Positions 2,381 to 33,480 of a DNA stretch of 33,690 bases are shown here, piece after piece. Position 1 is the first letter of the stretch; each line of letters starts with the position of its first letter. The position numbers were made by a program, and so were the translations under genes. The notes beneath the pieces were generated by a model that did no database searches, was not told where the DNA came from, and saw nothing but the letters and a program-made list of their open reading frames with translations. Origin of the DNA: a virus; the IMG/VR virus record IMGVR_UViG_3300046655_000181, positions 1 to 33,690 of that record. One strand, written 5' to 3'.

Positions 2381-2968
2381 TTAATCCTCCAGCTTTGCTT
2401 TTGTTGGGCGCTTTAAAAACCCAAACTTCTGATCGTCCTTACTTGGCGTGATTGCCGCAATAAATGAGACGCGCTTGCCCTTTAAGTCTGTACCGTCAAA
2501 AAACTGATGGTTAAGGAAAGTCTCAGTTTGCTCCTTCAATTTTTGCGGGATAGACCCCCAAACCTTAAAGCCACTATCGTCGCGCACCAGCATCTTCCAC
2601 TGGCTGCCAAAAGCAGTTTCGCGGATGTCAACAGAGAGAATCACGCCAGTCACCTCTACTCGGCCCTCTGGGCAATCTGCGGCGGCTTCCCACTCAGCGT
2701 TGCGCTCGACTTCGCGCTTTTCTGCGCGTGCCATAGCCTTGCGAACAGCAGCCTCTTGGTTTTCTGTCAGCCTGCCCCACTCATGCAAGGCGTCGCGCAT
2801 GTTGGCGATAAACTCACTGCCGCCAGCAGCCATCAGGCAAAAAGCCTCGATTTCCTTGCGTGTCTCGTCCTCGGCAATCCAGCGCTTGTTGCGCCCCGCA
2901 GTGGCGTTGGCTTTGATATTTCTTTCACGTCCGGCTTCCCAAGCCGCTGGGTCCATAATGTCAGTCAT
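2381..2968 (-). CDS. Putative OB-fold nucleic-acid-binding protein, 195 aa
   Basis: The N-terminal half (residues 1-100) is helical and charged (MTDIMDPAAWEAGRERNIKA). The C-terminal half, from about residue 103, reads as an OB-fold barrel: GRVEVTGVILSVDIRETAFG, KMLVRDDSGFKVWGSIP, KGKRVSFIAAITPSKDD, FGFLKRPTKA. Similar domains occur in phage and bacterial proteins suspected of binding single-stranded DNA or RNA. I chose ATG 2968 because it has an AGGGAGAC ribosome site and lies downstream of the promoter at 2996-3024; a longer frame to 3037 would run through that promoter. The gene is in its own transcription unit after a terminator. Confidence 0.75.
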   Translation of the reverse strand: MTDIMDPAAWEAGRERNIKANATAGRNKRWIAEDETRKEIEAFCLMAAGGSEFIANMRDALHEWGRLTENQEAAVRKAMARAEKREVERNAEWEAAADCPEGRVEVTGVILSVDIRETAFGSQWKMLVRDDSGFKVWGSIPQKLKEQTETFLNHQFFDGTDLKGKRVSFIAAITPSKDDQKFGFLKRPTKAKLED

Positions 2969-2995
2969 TTTTGTCTCCCTTGTTGCTACAATATA

Positions 2996-3024
2996 AACAT
3001 AATGTGATATCACAATAATATCAA
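2996..3024 (-). promoter_or_regulatory. Promoter with 12-bp palindromic operator in the spacer
   Basis: Read leftward, TTGATA (3024-3019) and TATGTT (3001-2996) form a sigma70-like promoter with a 17-nt spacer. The spacer contains the perfect palindrome TGTGATATCACA (3003-3014). The promoter lies between the terminator at 3036-3064 and the OB-fold gene. A repressor bound between -35 and -10 would block RNA polymerase. The LexA-like protein encoded just upstream and the ribbon-helix-helix protein at 5903 are the obvious candidates, although the pairing is inferred. Confidence 0.65.
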
Positions 3025-3035
3025 CCCCCACACAC

Positions 3036-3064
3036 AAATAAAAAGACCCCCGCCGAAACGGGGG
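3036..3064 (-). terminator. Rho-independent terminator of the leftward early operon
   Basis: On the minus strand CCCCCG (3064-3059) pairs with CGGGGG (3052-3047) across a 6-nt loop, followed by TCTTTTTATTT. It lies 42 nt after the LexA-like gene and ahead of the next promoter, so it separates the two leftward units. Confidence 0.85.
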
Positions 3065-3074
3065 CCAAGGTGGA

Positions 3075-3101
3075 TGCGCGGTAAGGGAGGGGAACCGCGC
3101 A
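3075..3101 (-). other. Hairpin after the LexA-like gene
   Basis: TGCGCGGT (3075-3082) and ACCGCGCA (3094-3101) form a perfect 8-bp stem with an 11-nt purine-rich loop on the plus strand (pyrimidine-rich on the transcribed strand). It sits between the stop codon of the LexA-like gene and the terminator, so the mRNA ends in two successive hairpins. A role in 3'-end stability or as a protein-binding site is possible. Confidence 0.5.
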
Positions 3102-3105
3102 CCAA

Positions 3106-3318
3106 CTACAGTAGCCTAAACGCTCTGGCCTTGCCAGCCACCTTTTCCGCTGCGCCGCGTTCAATAAGTCCGGTCATTAACCGGTGGACTTGTGACATGC
3201 TTTTCCCTGTTTTATCGGATAGCTCGTTGATCGTCGGCGTGTAGCCATACCGGCGGGCATACCTGTCGATCACGTTGCGCAGCTCCGCCTGCGCTTTGGT
3301 TAACGGTACATCAATCAT
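3106..3318 (-). CDS. LexA-like N-terminal winged-helix DNA-binding protein, 70 aa
   Basis: The whole protein aligns by eye with the DNA-binding domain of LexA: LTKAQAELRNVIDRYARRYGYTPTINELSDKTGKSMSQVHRLMTGLIERG, then a wing (AAEKVAGKARAFRLL). The C-terminal dimerisation and Ser-Lys autoproteolysis domain of full LexA is absent, so RecA-stimulated self-cleavage is not possible. It is expected to act as a small transcriptional regulator. It overlaps the upstream exonuclease gene by 8 nt and is the last gene of its operon, next to the palindromic operator at 3003-3014. Confidence 0.82.
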   Translation of the reverse strand: MIDVPLTKAQAELRNVIDRYARRYGYTPTINELSDKTGKSMSQVHRLMTGLIERGAAEKVAGKARAFRLL

Positions 3319-4273
3319 CGTCGAACACCTTTACAGTTAAAGTTGTCTGCCTTGCTATGCGGGCTGGCTTGGCGACAGTTGTCTTGGCTGGCTGCGCTTT
3401 GAAGTTCCGCATGGGCCACTTGATAACGTGCCTCCGGTTGCCGATCAGGGCGACCGCCTCCTCATGTGACCCCATATGCTCCTTTAAGGCTGCCTCAGCC
3501 TCATCTATGTCAGCCTCAGCAGCTTTCTTTGCAGACTTCGCATTAACAAGCTGCTCGGCCCAGTCGACGTTCTCACCGGCCAGCTCAAGCGGCTCGGCAC
3601 CGTCGTCCACTCTAGGATATGCAGTGTTACCGTCAGAGCTGGTCAGGACCGGATACCAGTCAATGTCGAACTTGCGGCGCTCAAAATCCTCGACAATGTC
3701 AACGATCTCGGCTTGTCGAGCCGCGTTGGCTTGGTAAAGGAATATCCTCAGCTCTACACCGCCGTATAAGACGCATACAGCGCCCCAAGTGCGTTTAGCG
3801 CACATAAGCTGCCCTTGGAGCTGCAACGGCCCTCTGTGGGGCGCTGGGGCGTCTTCCGGCCTACTGCTCGTTGCCTTGCTCTCCAAGACGCCGACGCCGT
3901 CGACATAGACCGGACCCTCTGGGCAATAGATGCCCTTGGATGCGTCGGTCACGACCTCATGCCCCAGACCTCCGTCAGCCGTGCCGTCAAGCGACGCGGC
4001 AAACGGTATCTTATCGTGGAACAGCGCGTCGTGTTCCAGTTGCAGGTCGGTCAGACCAAGCCGCTCTGCCGCAATGGTCAGAATGATGGTTTCAAGGTGG
4101 TTACCCCACTCGGTCGCCTCGTTACCAGTAAACGGGTCGGGGTCAGGTTTGCCCTCAACCACGGCCAGTGCCTTTGCAAGCTGGTCGTTTGGCGTTCGAT
4201 ACGGTGATAAGTTTGCTGCGACCGGAATTACTGACGCGGTTAAAATATCGTCCGGTGTTCTTTTGCCTACCAT
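3311..4273 (-). CDS. YqaJ-like viral recombinase (lambda exonuclease family), 320 aa
   Basis: It shows the YqaJ/lambda exonuclease motifs in order: WGNHLE at 56-61, SLDGT with Asp96, LESK with Glu131 and Lys133, and LQLQGQLMC with Gln at 151-155. Enzymes of this fold digest one strand of double-stranded DNA ends to start strand annealing. The C-terminal third (about 235-320) adds a helical segment and a basic Lys/Arg/Ala-rich end. An AAGGAG ribosome site precedes the ATG at 4273. A partner annealing protein of the Bet or RecT type is not recognised; the OB-fold protein at 2381-2968 could fill that place, but this is inference. Confidence 0.86.
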   Translation of the reverse strand: MVGKRTPDDILTASVIPVAANLSPYRTPNDQLAKALAVVEGKPDPDPFTGNEATEWGNHLETIILTIAAERLGLTDLQLEHDALFHDKIPFAASLDGTADGGLGHEVVTDASKGIYCPEGPVYVDGVGVLESKATSSRPEDAPAPHRGPLQLQGQLMCAKRTWGAVCVLYGGVELRIFLYQANAARQAEIVDIVEDFERRKFDIDWYPVLTSSDGNTAYPRVDDGAEPLELAGENVDWAEQLVNAKSAKKAAEADIDEAEAALKEHMGSHEEAVALIGNRRHVIKWPMRNFKAQPAKTTVAKPARIARQTTLTVKVFDDD

Positions 4274-4300
4274 TTTTAATCTCCTTGTTTTGGTGGGGTG

Positions 4301-4318
4301 TGGTTAGTTTGCTAACCA
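4301..4318 (-). other. Hairpin spanning a stop codon inside the leftward operon
   Basis: TGGTTAG (4301-4307) and CTAACCA (4312-4318) form a 7-bp stem with a 4-nt loop that includes the TAA of the 37-residue gene and lies 28 nt upstream of the exonuclease ATG. There is no T-run, so it is not a simple terminator. It could couple or limit translation, or set an mRNA processing site. Confidence 0.45.
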
Positions 4319-4417
4319 AACCATCAACCCCCAGATGTTGTATTTTTCGCTGATCATGTTGGTGAATGAGAGGGCCAGCAATAAAAGCAAAGCCCCCCCT
4401 ACAATATCCTGCTTCAT
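4304..4417 (-). CDS. Small membrane peptide, 37 aa
   Basis: The frame starts at 4417, its ATGA overlapping the stop of the peptidase-like gene, and ends at 4304-4306. The GGGGAG ribosome site is in the end of that gene. The peptide starts MKQDIVGGALLLLLALSF and has one hydrophobic stretch at about 5-18 and a second weaker one near the end (IWGLMVWLAN). It is very short but has the overlap and ribosome site of a real coupled gene. Its function is unknown; single-span peptides of early phage operons are often host-directed. Confidence 0.55.
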   Translation of the reverse strand: MKQDIVGGALLLLLALSFTNMISEKYNIWGLMVWLAN

Positions 4418-5241
4418 GCTGCGCTCCCCATTTCACGTTTCAGATGGCCCCACCTTTTATGAAACTCGACCAACTCAATCATGCAATGCTCAACCTCATC
4501 CCAGTCATGGCAGAACCTGCCATCGTTATTAATCTCCGCATCACGCGAAGCTGGGTGGCTACTGTCTTCGACCAGCTCGTATATCAATTGGTCTAGGCTA
4601 CTGTTGACCCAGTAATTAGTCTCGTAACCGTATTCTATGTCATACGACAAGCCAACGTCTGGATTATCGGCAATCAACTTGCGAACCCGACGGTAACAGT
4701 CCGGTGACTTTCTAGACTTGGGCTGCTCAATAAACGGAATGCGGATCTTGCCATCAGCCGCAATCGGTGTCAGCTCGTACACGTCCCTGACACGGGCGCG
4801 GCGCTTGACGCGCTTGTCTCGGATGCTGATAAGCTCTTTGACAATGCCGCAGATATAACGTCTTCCAGTAATGATCTGCCAATGCCACCCAGCCGATACC
4901 AAGAACACACGACCGGCAGTCCGCTCGGATGTTGTATTCTTCAACCAGCGTGCCAGCGTCGGGCTATCGGAAGCCGTTAGACCTGCGCCGCGATATGATA
5001 CGCGGCTCATGTCAATGCCAAGGTGCTTGAACGCGGTTTTAATCTGGTGGTCGCTAGTGCCTTTCACGGCGTGAACCTGCGTGAATATGCTTCGGATCAG
5101 TCGCGATGCGTCGCCGGTCGTAATGCCGGACATGATCGAAAGAACGGCTGGCCCGCAGTAGCGGTTCCTGTCGGACTTCTTAGTGCCGTTGTTTACGGGG
5201 CGAACTTTAAAGGCCGCAATCTTTTTAAATGTAACAGTCAT
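4414..5241 (-). CDS. Papain-like/C39-like cysteine peptidase-type protein, 275 aa
   Basis: The N-terminal part has the signature of papain-like and C39-like peptidases: RNRYCGPAVLSIMSG with the likely nucleophile Cys29, and VFLVSAGWHWQIITG with His120, about 90 residues apart. The third catalytic residue is not clear. The C-terminal part (about 150-275) is basic, then acidic, with DCYRRVRKLIADNP and no recognised domain. Either it is an active peptidase acting early in infection or a catalytically altered relative. ATG 5241 was preferred over the longer frame because AAAGGGAG lies just upstream and a strong hairpin (5259-5278) would fall within the extension. Confidence 0.68.
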   Translation of the reverse strand: MTVTFKKIAAFKVRPVNNGTKKSDRNRYCGPAVLSIMSGITTGDASRLIRSIFTQVHAVKGTSDHQIKTAFKHLGIDMSRVSYRGAGLTASDSPTLARWLKNTTSERTAGRVFLVSAGWHWQIITGRRYICGIVKELISIRDKRVKRRARVRDVYELTPIAADGKIRIPFIEQPKSRKSPDCYRRVRKLIADNPDVGLSYDIEYGYETNYWVNSSLDQLIYELVEDSSHPASRDAEINNDGRFCHDWDEVEHCMIELVEFHKRWGHLKREMGSAA

Positions 5242-5258
5242 ACCAATCTCCCTTTCGG

Positions 5259-5278
5259 GCGGGGCTGTTAAGCCCCGC
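5259..5278 (-). other. Strong intergenic hairpin upstream of the peptidase-like gene
   Basis: GCGGGGCT (5259-5266) and AGCCCCGC (5271-5278) make a perfect 8-bp stem closed by a 4-nt loop. It fills the gap between two leftward genes, a few bases before the ribosome site of the downstream one, and lacks a T-run on the transcribed strand. It may be an mRNA processing or stability element, or may tune translation. Confidence 0.55.
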
Positions 5279-5283
5279 ATTAG

Positions 5284-5673
5284 TTAAAAATTAAAATCGT
5301 ATTTTTTTGAAGGGGTGTCGCTCATGTAGTAGCGACTGCCGTCAGCGCATTGCCAGCGCATTTTTGCTTTTGACCAACGGATTGTAACCAAGCGTCCATC
5401 CTCGTCAGGCGAAATGCTCCATGAGTTGCGCTGGTCATCATTGTTGGTGCAATGAGCAGAAAAGCCGCCAGAAACAAACTTAGGCTTCCAGCCTTCCGCA
5501 CGCTCCGCTTTCATGGCGCGGATAACAACTTTGTTTTCGGTGCGAACATCGACAACCTCAAACGGCTCGACATCTGAATAGCCGGAAAAATTTGCAAAAG
5601 CTTTGATTGGCTTGTTGCGGGCGATTGTTTTGGCGTTTTGCTTTGCAATATATTCTTTGTGATTAAAAGTCAT
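5284..5673 (-). CDS. Hypothetical early protein, 129 aa
   Basis: This is the first gene of the leftward operon, about 45 nt downstream of its promoter's -10, with an AAGGAG ribosome site before the ATG. The N-terminus is basic (MTFNHKEYIAKQNAKTIARNKPIKAF). The rest is mixed strand-like sequence with KVVIRAMKAERAEGWKPKF and RWSKAKMRWQCADGSRYY. I see no membrane segment and no known motif. As the most promoter-proximal early gene it is probably made soon after entry and may be a host-takeover protein, but this rests on position only. Confidence 0.65.
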   Translation of the reverse strand: MTFNHKEYIAKQNAKTIARNKPIKAFANFSGYSDVEPFEVVDVRTENKVVIRAMKAERAEGWKPKFVSGGFSAHCTNNDDQRNSWSISPDEDGRLVTIRWSKAKMRWQCADGSRYYMSDTPSKKYDFNF

Positions 5674-5902: not shown

Positions 5903-6094
5903 ATGAACGAAGTTAAACCCATATTGCTCCGGCTGAGAGCCTCAACCATTGATGCGCTGAAAAGTGAGCTGGATTTATCGGCACACCGGAGCCAGTCTAG
6001 TCTGGCTGACGAATTGTTAATGTCGCAACTAGAAGCGAAGCAGCGCCACCGCGCCATCCAGTTTGAGATGGACAAGCAGGCAGGCCGAGACTGA
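5903..6094 (+). CDS. Ribbon-helix-helix (Arc/MetJ-type) regulator, 63 aa
   Basis: The pattern is a strand (KPILLRLR, residues 5-12), a helix (STIDALKSELDLSAH) and a second helix (SQSSLADELLMSQLEAKQR), as in dimeric ribbon-helix-helix repressors, in which the strand pair contacts the DNA major groove. It heads the rightward early unit, next to the divergent control region, so autoregulation or control of the opposing promoter is likely. Its TGA overlaps the ATG of the next gene by one base (TGATG). A ribosome site of the AAGGG type lies upstream. Confidence 0.72.
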   Translation: MNEVKPILLRLRASTIDALKSELDLSAHRSQSSLADELLMSQLEAKQRHRAIQFEMDKQAGRD

Positions 6095-6543
6095 TGCGGC
6101 AGGGCGGGGGCCGCGCCAAGGGTGCATCATATGAGCGCGAAATCGCAAAGCTCATTGAGCTTGAGACGGGCCGCAAATTGCGGAGGCGATTATCGCAGTA
6201 TCAAGAAAAAGACCTGAGCGATCTGGAGCCAGCCGACGGCAAGGCGTTCCCATTTCTCATTGAGTGTAAGCGGTATAAATCTGGATTATCACCAAAGTGG
6301 TGGGACCAGATCGTGACTGCGGCGAAGTCGTCAGCAAATGTTGACGACGCATACCCGTGTTTAATTTATCGCTTGGACCGTCAGCAAACGCAGGTCAGGA
6401 TACCCGTGCAGGCGGTCGTAGCTCTCGGCAATTCTTACGTTGCCGGAGACGTGGCTGAAACTTATGACTGGGCGTACACCGTGACAATGGACTGGGATAC
6501 ATTTGCTATGGTACTGCGTGAACATCTAGCGGTGATGGAATGA
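6094..6543 (+). CDS. Putative PD-(D/E)XK nuclease, resolvase-like, 149 aa
   Basis: The motif set of PD-(D/E)XK enzymes is seen: SYERE with Glu14/Glu16 in the first helix, QEKDLSDLEP with Asp40/Asp43, and LIECKR with Glu57 and Lys59, followed by PKWWDQI and a strand CLIYRLDR. This layout is shared by Holliday-junction resolvases and by other small phage endonucleases. The substrate cannot be read from the sequence. It is coupled on both sides (TGATG upstream, ATGA downstream) to a regulator and a Mom-like modification gene, which raises the possibility that nuclease and modification work together. Confidence 0.75.
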   Translation: MRQGGGRAKGASYEREIAKLIELETGRKLRRRLSQYQEKDLSDLEPADGKAFPFLIECKRYKSGLSPKWWDQIVTAAKSSANVDDAYPCLIYRLDRQQTQVRIPVQAVVALGNSYVAGDVAETYDWAYTVTMDWDTFAMVLREHLAVME

Positions 6544-7298
6544 AAGCTCACCAGCGTTTAGTTCGCGAAGCAAAAGAACGTGAAAGAGGCGTTGACCTTT
6601 TTGGCGGTTACTGGCGCGACATAAATACCGACATAAAATTAGCGCAGGTTAGAGAGGTTAGTCATAATCAGGCCAAAGAGATTATTGAGGAGTACGAGTG
6701 GATGGGCTGTTTAGCTGCTGTCAACTGGTACTATTACGGCATATTTTTCGACAATATTTGCGGCGGCGTCGTGGTATATGGGCAGGAATATATCGAAAAC
6801 TTAGGGCGATGGGACCGTTACGGGTACACCGGTAAGATCATTCTCTTAAACCGGGGCGCCTGCGTTCACTGGGCGCATCCGCACTCAGCAAGCAAACTGA
6901 TTCGCACCTCCATGAAAATGCTGCCAGAAAAGTACAAGGTTGTCACGGCAACTGTCGATGACTTAGCAGGTGAGATCGGCACAATTTATCAAGCATGTGG
7001 CTTTGACTATATTGGGTCGATGCGTGACGCTAACCCAAATATAAACAGCCGCAAGGGTGACCGGTCTGGCTGGCTCATCAATGGAAAACTTTATGGCGCT
7101 CGCGCAATCAGGCAAAAGTTTGGCACAACAAAAATTGAAGTGATCCGCAAAAGATACCCAGACGCGAGGCACGTTAAGCAAAACAGCAAGGGAAGATATT
7201 TTGCTTTTCGCGGGACAAAAAAAGAAATTAAAAATAACAGAAAAGCAATCGCGCATTTGATACGCCAGTATCCAAAAAGAATTACGCAGGGGCAGTGA
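6540..7298 (+). CDS. Mom-like DNA adenine modification protein (GNAT fold), 252 aa
   Basis: It resembles the Mom family of phage Mu, a GNAT-fold family in which Mom converts adenine to N6-(methylcarbamoyl)adenine and so shields phage DNA from restriction. Seen here: EYEWMG at 51-56, GVVVYG at 76-81, IILLNRGAC at 100-108, SASKLIR at 116-122, VTATVDDLAGEIGTIYQACGF at 135-155 (the conserved Asp and Gly-x-IYQA core), then a C-terminal part with KGRYFAFRG at 217-225 and the YPKR end typical of the group. The gene is coupled to the nuclease upstream (ATGA). A more distant acetyltransferase role cannot be excluded. Confidence 0.72.
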   Translation: MKAHQRLVREAKERERGVDLFGGYWRDINTDIKLAQVREVSHNQAKEIIEEYEWMGCLAAVNWYYYGIFFDNICGGVVVYGQEYIENLGRWDRYGYTGKIILLNRGACVHWAHPHSASKLIRTSMKMLPEKYKVVTATVDDLAGEIGTIYQACGFDYIGSMRDANPNINSRKGDRSGWLINGKLYGARAIRQKFGTTKIEVIRKRYPDARHVKQNSKGRYFAFRGTKKEIKNNRKAIAHLIRQYPKRITQGQ

Positions 7299-8110: not shown

Positions 8111-9937
8111 ATGACAAATATAGCGGCACATGCCGAGGCGGTAGCAACCGCATATTGGGGAGAGCCAGCGGTCCGGCGGGGTCACATACTGCGCTGGGGG
8201 ACGCACGGCTCAAAAGAACTTGACCTTCGCAAAGGCACTTGGTTCGACTTTGAAAACAACGAGGGCGGCGGGGTTATCGATCTGGTGCGGGCGCATGAAA
8301 GCACGTCTATGCAAGGCACAATACCGGAGATACTGGAGCGCAAGTTTGGTATCCAGCGACAGAGCCAGCAGACACTGACGCCCGCACGCTTTATGAGCGC
8401 GGTGTATGACTACGTCGACGATCAGGGCGAGGTGGTCTATCAGGTGCGCCGGTTTGAGCCTAAGACGTTTCGTCAGGTCAGGCCGGACGGTAAGGGCGGC
8501 TGGATACATAACATGGACGGTGTAATGCCGGTCCCGTACCGGCTCGACCGTATGATACTCAACCCAGAAGCGCCGGTCTTTATTGTGGAGGGTGAGAAGG
8601 CCGCAAACCGGCTAATCAAGGAGGGACTGGTTGCCACCACCAATCACGGCGGGGCAAAGAACTGGAAGCCAGATCTTAACAAGTGGTTTGCCGGTAAGAG
8701 TGTCGTGGTTCTGCCAGATGCAGACGATGCCGGAGCCGCGCACGCTGAAGTCGTGATCGCCAATATATTTGAGACAGCCAAGCAGGTGAAGCGCGTGGAT
8801 CTGTCGGGCCTGCCGGAAAAGGGCGACGTGGTCGACTATCTGGATAACCGCAGTGTCAAGGACATGCTGGCAGAGGTCAAGGCAGCGCCGGTCATTGCCG
8901 CAGCTCCAGTTGATGCGCCGGAGCCGGAGGTAAGCGACGGGCTTGACTACTTCGATTTTGTCGGTGCCGAGTACATCCGAAACATGCCGCCGATAGAGTG
9001 GACGATAGGCGAGGGGGATAAGGGCATCATCACGCAGCATGGCCTGACGGTGATGTATGGCGCACCAGGCGCCGGTAAGTCGTTTATCGCCCTCGACATG
9101 GCGCTGTCGATTGCAAACGGCGTCCCGTGGCAGGGTATGGCAACCAAGAAGGGCAAGGTGCTTTACATAGCCGGTGAGGGCGTTGGCGGCCTTGGCAAGC
9201 GCCTCAATGCGTGGGAGGCACACAACAAGGTGCGCGATAACAAGAACCTTCACGTTTTGCCTATCGCCGTGAATTTTCGTGAACAGGCAGACGTGGAAAA
9301 GCTGATGCGTTCAATCGACAAGGCTGGCACGGGCTGGTCGGTCGTGTTCTGCGATACCGTCGCCAGATCACTCGTCGGGGCAGACGAGAACAGTGCCACC
9401 GAGCTTGGCCTGTGGGTTTCTGCGGCGGATAGTATCAAGGCACACTGCGGTTGCGCGTTTATCGGGGTGCATCATAGCGGCAAGGACAGTACACGCGGTA
9501 TGCGCGGCTCCAGCGCCCTTCTGGGGGCTGTTGATACGTCGCTGGTGGTCAGCAAGGACGAGAACCTCGTTTACATGCGTTGCGAGAAACAGAAGGACGC
9601 AGAGCCAGCAGATGAGCAGGTGTTTGAGATGACCGAGGTTGCACTAATAGAGGGAACGTCGGTTGTGTTGTCACGGGTCGACGGCGAACAGCCGGTCAAA
9701 AAGAAGAAGGCAAAGGGGCTTTCAGTTAATCAGCAGATCGCTCTGGAGGCGCTCAGAAACGTCATAATCGATAGCGGGAACAAGGTCGTTGCGGCGTCAT
9801 TATGGCATGAGGAACACAGGCAAAAATGCCCAGATTTGGACCGCCGGAGGGCCGGAGACGCCAGACACGGGCTAATTGAGCTTGGTTTGGTTGCGGCGGA
9901 CAAAAACAAGGTATGGCTTATTAATGATAACAAGTAG
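8111..9937 (+). CDS. Primase-helicase: Toprim domain fused to RepA-like AAA ATPase, 608 aa
   Basis: The N-terminus (about 20-60) looks like a degenerate primase lead-in with GTWFDFENNEGGGVIDLV. A Toprim domain follows at about 154-210 with VFIVEGEKAANRL (Glu160/Glu162) and VVVLPDADDAG (Asp203 and Asp205). From about 295 a RepA/AAA_25-type hexameric helicase ATPase begins: Walker A GAPGAGKS at 317-324, Walker B VVFCD at 411-415, HHSGKD at 454-459 and RGMRGSSAL at 462-470. A C-terminal winged helix is likely at about 535-608. It would prime and unwind phage DNA for the host replicase. A repeat array that may be the origin lies just downstream. Confidence 0.9.
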   Translation: MTNIAAHAEAVATAYWGEPAVRRGHILRWGTHGSKELDLRKGTWFDFENNEGGGVIDLVRAHESTSMQGTIPEILERKFGIQRQSQQTLTPARFMSAVYDYVDDQGEVVYQVRRFEPKTFRQVRPDGKGGWIHNMDGVMPVPYRLDRMILNPEAPVFIVEGEKAANRLIKEGLVATTNHGGAKNWKPDLNKWFAGKSVVVLPDADDAGAAHAEVVIANIFETAKQVKRVDLSGLPEKGDVVDYLDNRSVKDMLAEVKAAPVIAAAPVDAPEPEVSDGLDYFDFVGAEYIRNMPPIEWTIGEGDKGIITQHGLTVMYGAPGAGKSFIALDMALSIANGVPWQGMATKKGKVLYIAGEGVGGLGKRLNAWEAHNKVRDNKNLHVLPIAVNFREQADVEKLMRSIDKAGTGWSVVFCDTVARSLVGADENSATELGLWVSAADSIKAHCGCAFIGVHHSGKDSTRGMRGSSALLGAVDTSLVVSKDENLVYMRCEKQKDAEPADEQVFEMTEVALIEGTSVVLSRVDGEQPVKKKKAKGLSVNQQIALEALRNVIIDSGNKVVAASLWHEEHRQKCPDLDRRRAGDARHGLIELGLVAADKNKVWLINDNK

Positions 9938-9949
9938 TTATCGAAAAAT

Positions 9950-10051
9950 GTCCGGTGTCCGGCGGACAGTGTCCGGTCAAAGCGGACGGTGTCCGTCCTG
10001 TCCGGTTTTTACTAGGAACCGGACGGACATCCGGACGGACGGACGGACGGG
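9950..10051 (+). repeat. GGAC-rich iteron-like repeat array, candidate replication origin
   Basis: This 102-nt intergenic stretch is built almost wholly from CGGAC and its complement GTCCG. Two copies of a near-palindrome 20 bp apart read CGGACAGTGTCCG (9963-9975) and CGGACGGTGTCCG (9983-9995). A hairpin follows, with GTCCGGTT (10000-10007) pairing with AACCGGAC (10017-10024) and extending to 10 bp with one G-T pair. The right end has runs of GGAC at 10021-10028 and 10033-10051. Such arrays beside a helicase gene are typical of replication origins or initiator-binding sites; an operator array is the alternative. Confidence 0.6.
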
Positions 10052-10069
10052 CTAAAATGGAGGACAGAA

Positions 10070-10639
10070 ATGGCAGTTAAAAAGGGTCGAGGTAAGCCGA
10101 AGCCAAACAAGGTTTACCATGCGCCAAGCAATGGGGCGATGAGACGGATGCAACAGAGCCTGCATAGGTATGATGACAGGGTTTCTCAGGTTGAGCAGAA
10201 GTGGGGTGTGGACAGGTTGGTGTGGTTGGTGCCAACGGAGCTGCGGAATAGATTTGAGCAGCAAATGGACAGGCTCAATGCGGCTATCGATAAAATGCAG
10301 GATGTGGAGCATCAGGTTGAGGTGACGCTAAAGGGTGTCGCCGCATTAGAGAAAGCGGCAGTCGAAGCCGGTGCCGAACCGCTAAAGGGGGAGTGGATAG
10401 AGGGCAACATGCCGGACGGTCGGGTGTTAGCAATCGTGCCGACAGATTACGAGGTGAGCAAGGTAAAGCGAGACAATCGTGAAATGGTGGTTTACTCTGT
10501 CAATGAGATTGGTCGGATCTTGGAGGACTGGGAGGCCAGCAAGCCGGTTGAAGAGGTGAAGCATGTGTTTGAGGGTGCGGTAGTGGAAAAGATACGCACA
10601 CCAATTGAGGAGGAGTTGAATGACGAGATCCCCTTCTGA
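10070..10639 (+). CDS. Hypothetical protein with SSB-like C-terminal tip, 189 aa
   Basis: The N-terminus is basic (MAVKKGRGKPKPNKVYHAP), followed by a helical segment to about residue 105 with LRNRFEQQMDRLNAAIDKMQ, then a strand-rich middle and an acidic end. The last nine residues, EELNDEIPF, resemble the acidic tip of bacterial single-stranded DNA-binding proteins (usually DDDIPF), which recruits primase, exonucleases and helicases. No OB fold is evident. The gene lies next to the candidate origin. Its ATG follows TGGAGGACAGAA, a good ribosome site. Confidence 0.68.
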   Translation: MAVKKGRGKPKPNKVYHAPSNGAMRRMQQSLHRYDDRVSQVEQKWGVDRLVWLVPTELRNRFEQQMDRLNAAIDKMQDVEHQVEVTLKGVAALEKAAVEAGAEPLKGEWIEGNMPDGRVLAIVPTDYEVSKVKRDNREMVVYSVNEIGRILEDWEASKPVEEVKHVFEGAVVEKIRTPIEEELNDEIPF

Positions 10640-11278: not shown

Positions 11279-11495
11279 CGTTGTCAACATAAGAGACAGG
11301 CATTTTGTGCAGTTTTTTACTGAGCCGGTAGACTGTGATTGGTGTGGACAAGAAACGCACGGTTATGTGTTTGAGAGAATGCAGTCTATCGTCTGCTCTA
11401 AGTGCAGGCAGCCTTTACTGGTGATTGATGACAGAGAGAAAATGATTGTGACTTTGGATGATGGGACAGAGATGGAGTTTGACGATGAGTGCTAG
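11271..11495 (+). CDS. Zinc-ribbon protein, 74 aa
   Basis: It has the pairs Cys22-x-x-Cys25 (DCDWCGQETHG) and Cys42-x-x-Cys45 (IVCSKCRQPLL), the arrangement of a zinc ribbon, with an acidic C-terminal tail (TLDDGTEMEFDDEC). It overlaps the preceding gene by 8 nt and the small terminase gene by 11 nt. The role is unknown; a nucleic-acid or protein adaptor is plausible. It is the second zinc-ribbon protein in this block, with a different sequence from the first. Confidence 0.68.
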   Translation: MGDVVNIRDRHFVQFFTEPVDCDWCGQETHGYVFERMQSIVCSKCRQPLLVIDDREKMIVTLDDGTEMEFDDEC

Positions 11496-12033
11496 GCTAC
11501 CTGATGAGGTGTGGGTCGAGTTCTTATCCCGTGTTACGGCGGGACGCGCTGGTCAGTCAGTGTGCAGGGATAAGGACATGCCAGCTTGGGGGACAGCGTG
11601 GAATAAAATACATAACGATAAGGATTTTGAGCGCAAATATATGAACGCATTGGCGTCTCGCGGCATGTTATATGCTGATCAATTGGATGAGATAAACAGG
11701 CGTGTGCTTAGTGGTGAGATTGACCCGCAAGCTGCCAGACTTGTGTCTGACAATTTCAAGTGGACTGCGGCTAGACTGTTGCCAAAGGTATACGGAGACA
11801 AGCAACAAGTGGACGTGACGCATGAGGCCGGAAGTTCGTATCTTGATTTGCTACAGAAAGTAAATAGTGCAGCGCAGCTAAAGCACGCAGATGTGGTGGA
11901 GCATAAGGAAAACACAAGTGATGAACTACGCGCACGCGCGACCAAAGTTAACCAGATTTCAGTTAACTCTGATCTGCCTAATAAACAGGCAAATAAGCGC
12001 AATAAGGGCAAAAAGTTATCCACAGGCAACTAA
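11485..12033 (+). CDS. Terminase small subunit, Sf6-like, 182 aa
   Basis: It recognises phage DNA and loads the large subunit. The N-terminal helix-turn-helix (about 10-50) reads EVWVEFLSRVTAGRAGQSVCRDKDMPAWGTAWNKI, followed by the Sf6-type oligomerisation part with FERKYMNALASRGMLYADQLDEI, then AARLVSDNFKWTAARLLPKVYGDK, a near-diagnostic end of this family. The last 50 residues are basic and disordered. I chose ATG 11485 with TGGAG upstream, overlapping the previous stop; a start at 11458 is possible but less likely. The DNA coding for the C-terminus carries a repeat and a DnaA box. Confidence 0.85.
   Translation: MSARLPDEVWVEFLSRVTAGRAGQSVCRDKDMPAWGTAWNKIHNDKDFERKYMNALASRGMLYADQLDEINRRVLSGEIDPQAARLVSDNFKWTAARLLPKVYGDKQQVDVTHEAGSSYLDLLQKVNSAAQLKHADVVEHKENTSDELRARATKVNQISVNSDLPNKQANKRNKGKKLSTGN
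11943..11967 (+). repeat. First copy of a 25-bp GTTAAC direct repeat
   Basis: CAAAGTTAACCAGATTTCAGTTAAC lies inside the 3' end of the small terminase gene; positions 1-12 and 17-25 match the second copy at 12101-12125 except at one base (21 of 25 in all). Each copy carries two GTTAAC hexamers. A packaging recognition site for the small terminase is a candidate role. Confidence 0.5.
12016..12024 (+). promoter_or_regulatory. Perfect DnaA box (TTATCCACA)
   Basis: The nine bases match the host DnaA consensus exactly, within the last codons of the small terminase gene, just ahead of the intergenic repeats. About 0.25 such sites would be expected by chance on both strands of a window this size, so it may be meaningful or incidental. 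Confidence 0.35.
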
Positions 12034-12200
12034 GTGATTGATTTTACACAATACCGTTTGCGCATAATGGACGTTATGCGACATTTATGGCAAAAGCGTA
12101 CAAAGTTAACCAAAAATCGGTTAACCCCCCCCCGTCGCTCGCGGGCGCGGGGGCGGCGATAAAAAAATATACCCCTTACACACCCCTTTGGAGGTAACGC
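12034..12200. other. Intergenic region between terminase genes: candidate cos/pac or regulatory site
   Basis: No gene is seen. It holds an inverted repeat, CGCATAA (12061-12067) with TTATGCG (12074-12080); the second GTTAACC hairpin (12105-12111 with 12119-12125); and a C-run followed by a GC-rich stretch (12125-12160) and an A-run. A weak promoter TTGATT (12038) with CATAAT (12063), 19 nt apart, could drive the late genes. The combination of terminase context, repeats and a GC-rich core fits a packaging signal; an origin or a late promoter region is the alternative. The large terminase ribosome site TTGGAGG is at its end. Confidence 0.5.
12101..12125 (+). repeat. Second copy of the 25-bp GTTAAC direct repeat
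   Basis: It matches the first copy (11943-11967) in 21 of 25 bases, 158 bp downstream. Here the two GTTAAC parts form a hairpin, GTTAACC (12105-12111) with GGTTAAC (12119-12125), 7-nt loop, next to the GC-rich core of the intergenic region. Confidence 0.5.
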
Positions 12201-32448: not shown

Positions 32449-33480
32449 ATGCCGCTCTACGTTAACGATAGCGGCACTTGGAAGGAAGTCACCAGTGGTA
32501 ATTACTATGTTAAACATGGTGGGGCGTGGACGGCTGTACAAGAGGCGTATGTTAAAGACGCTGGAAGTTGGAAGCAGTATTTTCAGGGCGAGGTTGGTGT
32601 GACACTGGCTAATAGTACAAATGTGGCTGTATCATCCCTGTTCACTTCTTCAGTATGGACAGGGACTACACCAAAAAGAATTACCATCCCATCTGGTGTT
32701 ACTATTGGTGGGACAGGTGGAACAGCCGCTATGACAATAGCAAACACTATGGCTGGCACTCTTGTTATCGATAATGCTGGCAGTGTTCTTGGCACTGGGG
32801 GCGCTGCGAATAGTGGCGCTGGCGGCAATGCAATTACTAACGCGGCCTCTAATGTGACTATAAATAACACAAACCTGATAGCTGGAGGCGGCGGCGGTGG
32901 CGGTCAGGGCGGGGCAGGCGGCTCTGGCGAGGTAAACAATACAGCAGCTTGGTCAGGAAGAGAGCCAGCCGCAAACTGGACTAATGGATCGGCTCAAGTT
33001 GGTTATTATTGGAATGTCAATACTTATCATTTTTATTACAACGGCTCTACTAGTTATATAATTTGGGCCAGTAATATTGGTAATGCCAGCGGGTTTCCAG
33101 CTTACATAAGAATTGGAAGTAACGAGTATCATAGAGGTATTAGTCGCGGTAGCGGGAAATATGAAATATACCGTCAAGCAAAAACAACTACTTCAGCCGG
33201 AACAGGCGGAGCTGGTGGGCTGGGACAAGGCTATAATCAAACAAATTCGTCCGGCTCAAGCGGGAGCGCTGGCGGCACAGGTGCTGGCACGGGCGGCACG
33301 GGCGGCGCTGGATCGACCTACGCTGTTGCAGGCGTAGCGGGATCAACTGGCGCGAATGGAAATTCATATAGCAGCGGTACAGGCGCTGCTGGCGGCGCTG
33401 GCGGCGCTGCTGGAGCCGCTGTTAGCGGAACCTCAGTGACAATGAATAACACTGGTACAGTTCATGGAGCGGTCGCATGA
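32449..33480 (+). CDS. Glycine-rich tail adhesin, 343 aa
   Basis: The N-terminus has three Trp repeats (YVNDSGTWKEV, YVKHGGAWTAV, YVKDAGSWKQY), then a strand-rich part, a Gly run (about 145-160), a strand-rich insert (about 180-240) with YYWNVNTYHFYYNGSTSYIIWAS, and a very Gly/Ser/Ala-rich end (about 248-330). Segments of stacked Gly runs recall the polyglycine II sandwich of T-even-like Gp38 adhesins, in which loops between Gly strands bind the receptor. The adhesin call is by analogy. ATGA couples it to the last frame. Confidence 0.72.
   Translation: MPLYVNDSGTWKEVTSGNYYVKHGGAWTAVQEAYVKDAGSWKQYFQGEVGVTLANSTNVAVSSLFTSSVWTGTTPKRITIPSGVTIGGTGGTAAMTIANTMAGTLVIDNAGSVLGTGGAANSGAGGNAITNAASNVTINNTNLIAGGGGGGGQGGAGGSGEVNNTAAWSGREPAANWTNGSAQVGYYWNVNTYHFYYNGSTSYIIWASNIGNASGFPAYIRIGSNEYHRGISRGSGKYEIYRQAKTTTSAGTGGAGGLGQGYNQTNSSGSSGSAGGTGAGTGGTGGAGSTYAVAGVAGSTGANGNSYSSGTGAAGGAGGAAGAAVSGTSVTMNNTGTVHGAVA

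Follow-up and report, generated by a model that had tools for sequence, protein, structure and literature searches.

An iteron-like repeat array directly 3' of an SF4 primase-helicase gene as the probable replication origin of an uncultivated tailed phage

The DNA analysed here (the window, 33,690 bases) is the record of an uncultivated tailed phage and encodes an SU10-type portal and an Sf6-type small terminase. A gene for a primase-helicase of 608 aa lies on the plus strand at 8111-9937 and combines a Toprim primase, a RepA/AAA_25 (SF4, RecA-type) helicase and a predicted C-terminal winged helix. Between its stop codon (9937) and the next gene is an intergenic stretch of 132 nt (9938-10069), most of which is taken up by a repeat array at 9950-10048. 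The gene directly after the array (10070-10639, plus strand) encodes 189 aa and is conserved in relatives, with no match in Pfam or PHROG. Upstream of the primase-helicase, a Mom-like DNA modification protein and a PDDEXK/RusA-like nuclease are encoded (6540-7298 and 6094-6543, both on the plus strand).

The array contains 13 copies of CGGAC/GTCCG in ~100 nt, located between 9950 and 10048, at the place named in the original prediction. This is the densest 5-mer cluster of the 33,690-nt window, the runner-up being a poly-A cluster with 7 copies. When the whole window was simulated with an order-1 model (n=200), the maximum was 11 copies and the usual value 6-7, compared with the 13 observed. 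The array is, with near certainty, real. Its strand also folded better than 200 of 200 shuffles, both as DNA and as RNA. The second most repeat-dense stretch of the window is found at 33281-33410 and consists of GCCGCC/AGCGCC repeats.

Three parts can be distinguished in the array. The left arm (9949-10004) carries TGTCCGG units, mostly in forward orientation, and includes the two near-palindromes described earlier, GCGGACAGTGTCCG (9962-9975) and GCGGACGGTGTCCG (9982-9995), whose starts are exactly 20 bp apart. Helical phasing was considered as a general property of the units and rejected; the near-palindrome pair has this spacing, but the units overall are not clearly phased. The central part (10000-10024) is the anticipated hairpin GTCCGGTT...AACCGGAC, in full GTCCGGTT-TTTACTAGG-AACCGGAC, with 8 perfect outer pairs, or 11 when two G-U pairs are counted. 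It has a TA-containing apex that is kept in most relatives, while the stem changes. The right arm (10020-10048) consists of six inverted CGGAC units, 4 or 8 bp apart. The original prediction had noted that the array lacks a strongly AT-rich part, and the array itself is indeed GC-rich; this needs refinement for the 36 nt directly before it (9914-9949), which are 75% A+T and rank within the most AT-rich ~1% of the window's 36-mers. This flank may serve as an unwinding element, and the corresponding flanks in other lineages are 56-78% A+T. An Rfam search of the array region and a DNA similarity search of the region in phages gave no match, nor did a search of viral contigs for the exact pattern GTGTGA...CCCTATAGGG...TCACA, which was too strict.

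That a RepA-like helicase gene directly precedes the array, ending at 9937, was borne out by a Pfam AAA_25 match (E 9e-37) and by PHROG matches of the 608-aa protein to DNA primase/helicase and DNA polymerase/primase. The positions of E160, D203 and D205 in Toprim, G320, G322, K323 and S324 in Walker A and D415 in Walker B are invariant in 27 relatives. A full-length AlphaFold2 model, with these 27 relatives as alignment, reached a mean pLDDT of 83.5. Overall, its closest structural matches were T7 gp4 and Twinkle, and the helicase core was closest to RSF1010 RepA. For the last ~67 residues (aa ~538-604, encoded by 9722-9922, plus strand) the prediction is a winged helix, at good confidence, with the order H-b-H-H-b-b and a predicted recognition helix at aa ~578-590; pLDDT values of this tail were mostly 86-93 in the full-length model and about 76-88 in a tail-only model. 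The best Foldseek matches of the modelled tail were the winged helices of Cdc6/ORC, with a modest E of about 0.01, a resemblance that we read as similarity of fold and not as evidence of descent. Comparison of the tail with Pfam and PDB sequences returned nothing convincing. A weak match to the CHC2 zinc finger (4 of 29 tails, E 0.001) was set aside, given the winged-helix fold of the tail model.

With the protein as query, two scans of viral contigs yielded more than 80 related loci, and genome contigs yielded one (an Opitutae MAG contig). Where the contigs extend beyond the stop codon, nearly all relatives have an array directly 3' of the primase-helicase gene. The 58 relative loci with both array and gene share this position, and the unit is replaced lineage by lineage. 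TGTCCGG is used by the window and its close kin and also by L041, L043, L048 and L049, and it is mixed with TGTCACGG in L042, L044 and L010. The other units are GGTCGCAC (L050-L052, L014, L059-L064), GTCGGGT (L053-L057, L065, L066), TCGCACG (L070-L083 in part, L088, L109) and TGTGATG (L067, L077, L085, L089, L093-L098, L101, L104, L113), together with singular forms in L090-L092. All 17 representative arrays exceeded 200 of 200 shuffles in repeat content. The layout is likewise kept across lineages, with inverted units flanking a hairpin that has a TA-containing apex. Hairpin stems differ between classes with pairing kept, and the apex usually contains TA (CTAGG, CTATAGG, TTAGG). Since the strongest hairpin taken alone is not beyond chance in shuffles of several classes, the window's included, we treat the hairpin as supporting evidence, by virtue of its recurrence and its kept apex.

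The original prediction had named loss of the repeats in close relatives that still replicate as counting against an origin. The repeats are kept in nearly all relatives with contigs that extend far enough and are absent from the contigs of two divergent ones, G001 (L100/L123) and G002 (L102/L124), whose records are linear and may be incomplete. The array is thus not universal. These two have a terminator-like hairpin and another gene after the helicase. Their winged-helix tail has a different predicted recognition helix.

The relation between the array and the protein was analysed over 53 distinct gene-array combinations, with aa 1-540 defined as the core. Among the 222 pairs with a core identity of at least 75%, tail identity predicted array similarity with an AUC of 0.999, compared with 0.838 for core identity, and where the tail identity was also at least 75%, arrays were similar in 142 of 142 pairs. 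The clearest exchange separates L050/L051 from L053/L055, in which the core is 96-97% identical, the tail 28%, and the array similarity is 0.11-0.12. DNA identity between these loci is ~97% until near nt ~1575, just ahead of the part that encodes the winged helix, where it falls to ~50%, and it stays low until ~2010 nt after the gene start, through the array; the next gene is mostly 88-100% identical. Four separate contigs (L053, L054, L055, L057) carry the L053-type tail and array, and three (L050-L052) carry the other form, so a single chimeric assembly does not explain the swap. A reverse case is given by L053 and L065, with a core identity of 67%, a tail identity of 83% and similar arrays (0.61). 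A milder swap was found between L043 and L044, where the core is 94% and the tail 71% identical, the array differs and the flanks match.

Phylogenetic analysis pointed the same way. Core and tail trees conflict, each rejecting the grouping of the other (AU p 1e-99 and 4e-6), and the 8 array classes can be placed on the tail tree with 7 changes, which is the minimum, versus 10 on the core tree. Over the whole set, shared ancestry is a confounder, both for the class assignment and for the co-variation, and the Spearman partial correlation between tail and array given the core is 0.08 for all pairs, compared with 0.77 for pairs with 70-97% core identity. Because ancestry dominates the all-pairs correlation, our claim of co-variation is based on the close pairs and the swaps. 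As judged from these comparisons, the repeat unit goes with the winged-helix tail rather than with the remainder of the protein, and it is highly probable that the tail recognises the array.

Because the tail and the array adjoin, they could be carried by a single recombination tract with no functional link between them, and hypervariable intergenic repeats without any partner would then simply hitchhike with the 3' end of the gene. Such mere linkage is highly unlikely, as the next gene, which is equally contiguous, was not exchanged along in L050 vs L055, and as repeats persist in every lineage despite complete replacement of their sequence. The same set of genomes speaks to a packaging (pac) site with the terminase small subunit, TerS (11458-12033), as its recognising protein, which the intergenic position and the proximity of the repeats to the terminase genes would allow. 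L044 and L053, however, have TerS proteins that are 99% identical and unrelated arrays (0.04), whereas L044 and L046 have similar arrays (0.88) and TerS proteins of 55% identity. Across 36 pairs the Spearman correlation between TerS and array was -0.05. TerS type is thus decoupled from array type, and we rejected the pac site, which we regard as extremely unlikely, for this lack of co-variation.

An RNA element between two operon genes (a terminator, attenuator or translational switch with a conserved hairpin) would suit a site that lies after the stop codon of one gene and before the start of another. The plus strand folds strongly as RNA (z -5.0), and some inner stem pairs are T-G on this strand, corresponding to G-U in RNA. 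Against this, no T run follows the central hairpin, no Rfam family matched, and such an element would not account for units that change jointly with the winged helix encoded upstream, which makes it very unlikely.

Similar arrays were also found in phages unrelated to the window. We inspected 16 distant homologue loci, of which roughly half carry an array immediately 3' of the gene and roughly half lack one. The units are GGCGGAGAT in the Rhizobium phage RHph_N65, GCGGTACA in Idiomarinaceae phage 1N2-2, GTTCCCA in RHph_Y3_1, GCGTGACAA in Rhizobium phage 16-3, GGGACA in Streptococcus phage Javan46 and GGGACG in a human faecal phage scaffold, with a GTATAA-type unit in Roseobacter phage CRP-822 and a AAATAAAT-type unit in BcepGomr (Burkholderia). 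The repeat scores of the seven cultured-phage arrays (RHph_N65, 1N2-2, RHph_Y3_1, 16-3, CRP-822, BcepGomr and Javan46) were unreached by 200 shuffles; these arrays have the layout seen in the window's relatives, and palindromes with a TA apex are evident in RHph_N65, 1N2-2, RHph_Y3_1, CRP-822 and BcepGomr.

These arrays bear on the possibility that the units form an operator, bound by the tail to regulate the downstream operon or its own gene, with no replication start at the site. Co-variation between tail and array shows only recognition and not its purpose, and in the window the array does lie upstream of a conserved plus-strand gene (10070-10639). The RHph_N65 array, however, cannot control a downstream promoter because it is located between convergent genes, and no sigma-70-like promoter was found in or beside the array of the window. 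A site 3' of the gene would be odd for autoregulation, and a replicative primase-helicase is an unlikely regulator. We therefore consider an operator unlikely.

The best-supported reading is the one originally proposed, an iteron array beside the primase-helicase as a candidate origin, given the conserved position, the co-variation of the units with the winged helix and the similar arrays in unrelated cultured phages. We conclude that the array is very probably the iteron replication origin of the phage, used in cis, where 'origin' is inferred from sequence comparison. As expected of an iteron origin, many short copies of one unit occur above chance, beside a putative initiator gene whose product has a DNA-binding domain, the winged helix, by prediction. 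Consensus DnaA boxes, the mark of a DnaA-dependent origin, were absent from the array, as first noted, and from the entire stretch 9938-10069; those closest to it, at 12016 and 12042, occur at chance frequency. These two DnaA-box-like 9-mers (12016-12050) are spaced by 26 bp and lie close to the end of the small terminase gene, and the window total is at chance level. GC skew, which had been suggested as a check, showed no turn at the array, whether in the window or, cumulatively, over 11 long records, and was monotonic with gene orientation. It neither supports nor refutes an origin, because skew follows gene orientation along whole contigs. The main place where the skew turns negative in the window is a minus-strand gene block (2381-5673) that includes a RecE/YqaJ-like exonuclease gene (3311-4273).

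A mechanism can be proposed, in which the winged helix of the primase-helicase would bind TGTCCGG units on both sides of the central hairpin, as co-variation suggests. The bound units would gather primase-helicase subunits, probably as one ring per side, around the TA-centred palindrome. Melting or cruciform extrusion at the palindrome, perhaps aided by the AT-rich flank, may then expose single strands, on which the rings would load and the Toprim domain prime, by analogy with P4 alpha, SaPI Rep and RSF1010. Whether the SF4 primase-helicase self-loads in this manner without other factors is, in our judgement, an even call. We are equally divided on the wider proposal that an SF4 (T7 gp4/RepA-type) primase-helicase acts as its own initiator, using its C-terminal winged helix to find and open the origin with no other initiator or loader involved, and that winged helix and iterons together form a specificity cassette, exchanged between phages, which gives a new address to a replisome that otherwise stays the same.

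The helicase of P4 alpha is of SF3 type, and those of SaPI Rep and SCCmec Cch2 are also of another type than SF4, whereas the helicase here is of RepA/T7 gp4 (SF4) type by its AAA_25/RepA match. The system thus belongs to neither the P4 alpha nor the SaPI Rep family. It shares with P4 alpha the combination of a Toprim primase, a helicase and a winged helix (predicted here) in one chain, but differs in having repeats directly 3' of the gene, around a TA-apex hairpin. To our knowledge, no C-terminal origin-binding winged helix has been reported for T7 gp4 or Twinkle, the best full-length structural matches, which also fuse a Toprim primase to an SF4 helicase. In P4 alpha, the winged helix binds the origin repeats, after which the protein unwinds and primes (PMC4234260). 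Through its C-terminus, SaPI Rep recognises iterons that lie directly downstream of its own gene, and in SCCmec, Cch2 binds to a putative ori with direct repeats, located downstream of its operon (PMC7581432). Both resemble the arrangement proposed here in a short-iteron origin directly downstream of the initiator-helicase gene that is recognised by the helicase C-terminus; in SCCmec, however, the primase is a separate protein. RSF1010 splits the tasks among RepC (iteron binder), RepA (helicase) and RepB' (primase) and has ssiA/ssiB hairpins (PMC4234260). The RepA-fold helicase and an origin (putative here) with iterons plus hairpins are common to both, but here a single polypeptide replaces three proteins and the primase is of Toprim type. 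In pRN1, a stem-loop 3' of the replication gene is required (PMC4234260). pRN1 ORF904 and phage BIP-1 are alike in the C-terminal winged helix and in an element 3' of the gene with low sequence conservation and a conserved stem-loop, but their primase is archaeo-eukaryotic, their helicase is of SF3 type and they have a single large stem-loop and no iterons. Placement of an origin immediately 3' of the gene for an initiator helicase thus has precedents in SaPI, SCCmec and pRN1, and by analogy the best reading is that the system here would work like those of P4 alpha, SaPI Rep, RSF1010 and pRN1. Our search of openly readable papers returned precedents but no SF4 primase-helicase in such an arrangement.

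Most phage origins are unknown because origins share no sequence. Here the putative origin can be located by its architecture, namely repeats and a TA-apex hairpin 3' of a primase-helicase gene. The joint change of unit and tail in relatives suggests that one protein may both recognise and open its own origin, and the recognition code is open to study by comparing natural tail/array pairs. If an SF4 helicase self-loads via a fused winged helix, the replicon would be a compact one and would show self-loading by a helicase that is not of SF3 type. Rapid exchange of the cassette would fit selection against sharing an origin with co-infecting relatives or satellites. A separate exchange was observed at TerS (11458-12033), which is replaced between close relatives independently of its neighbours (L044, L046, L050, L053, L059), with identities from 99% to 55% in closely similar backbones.
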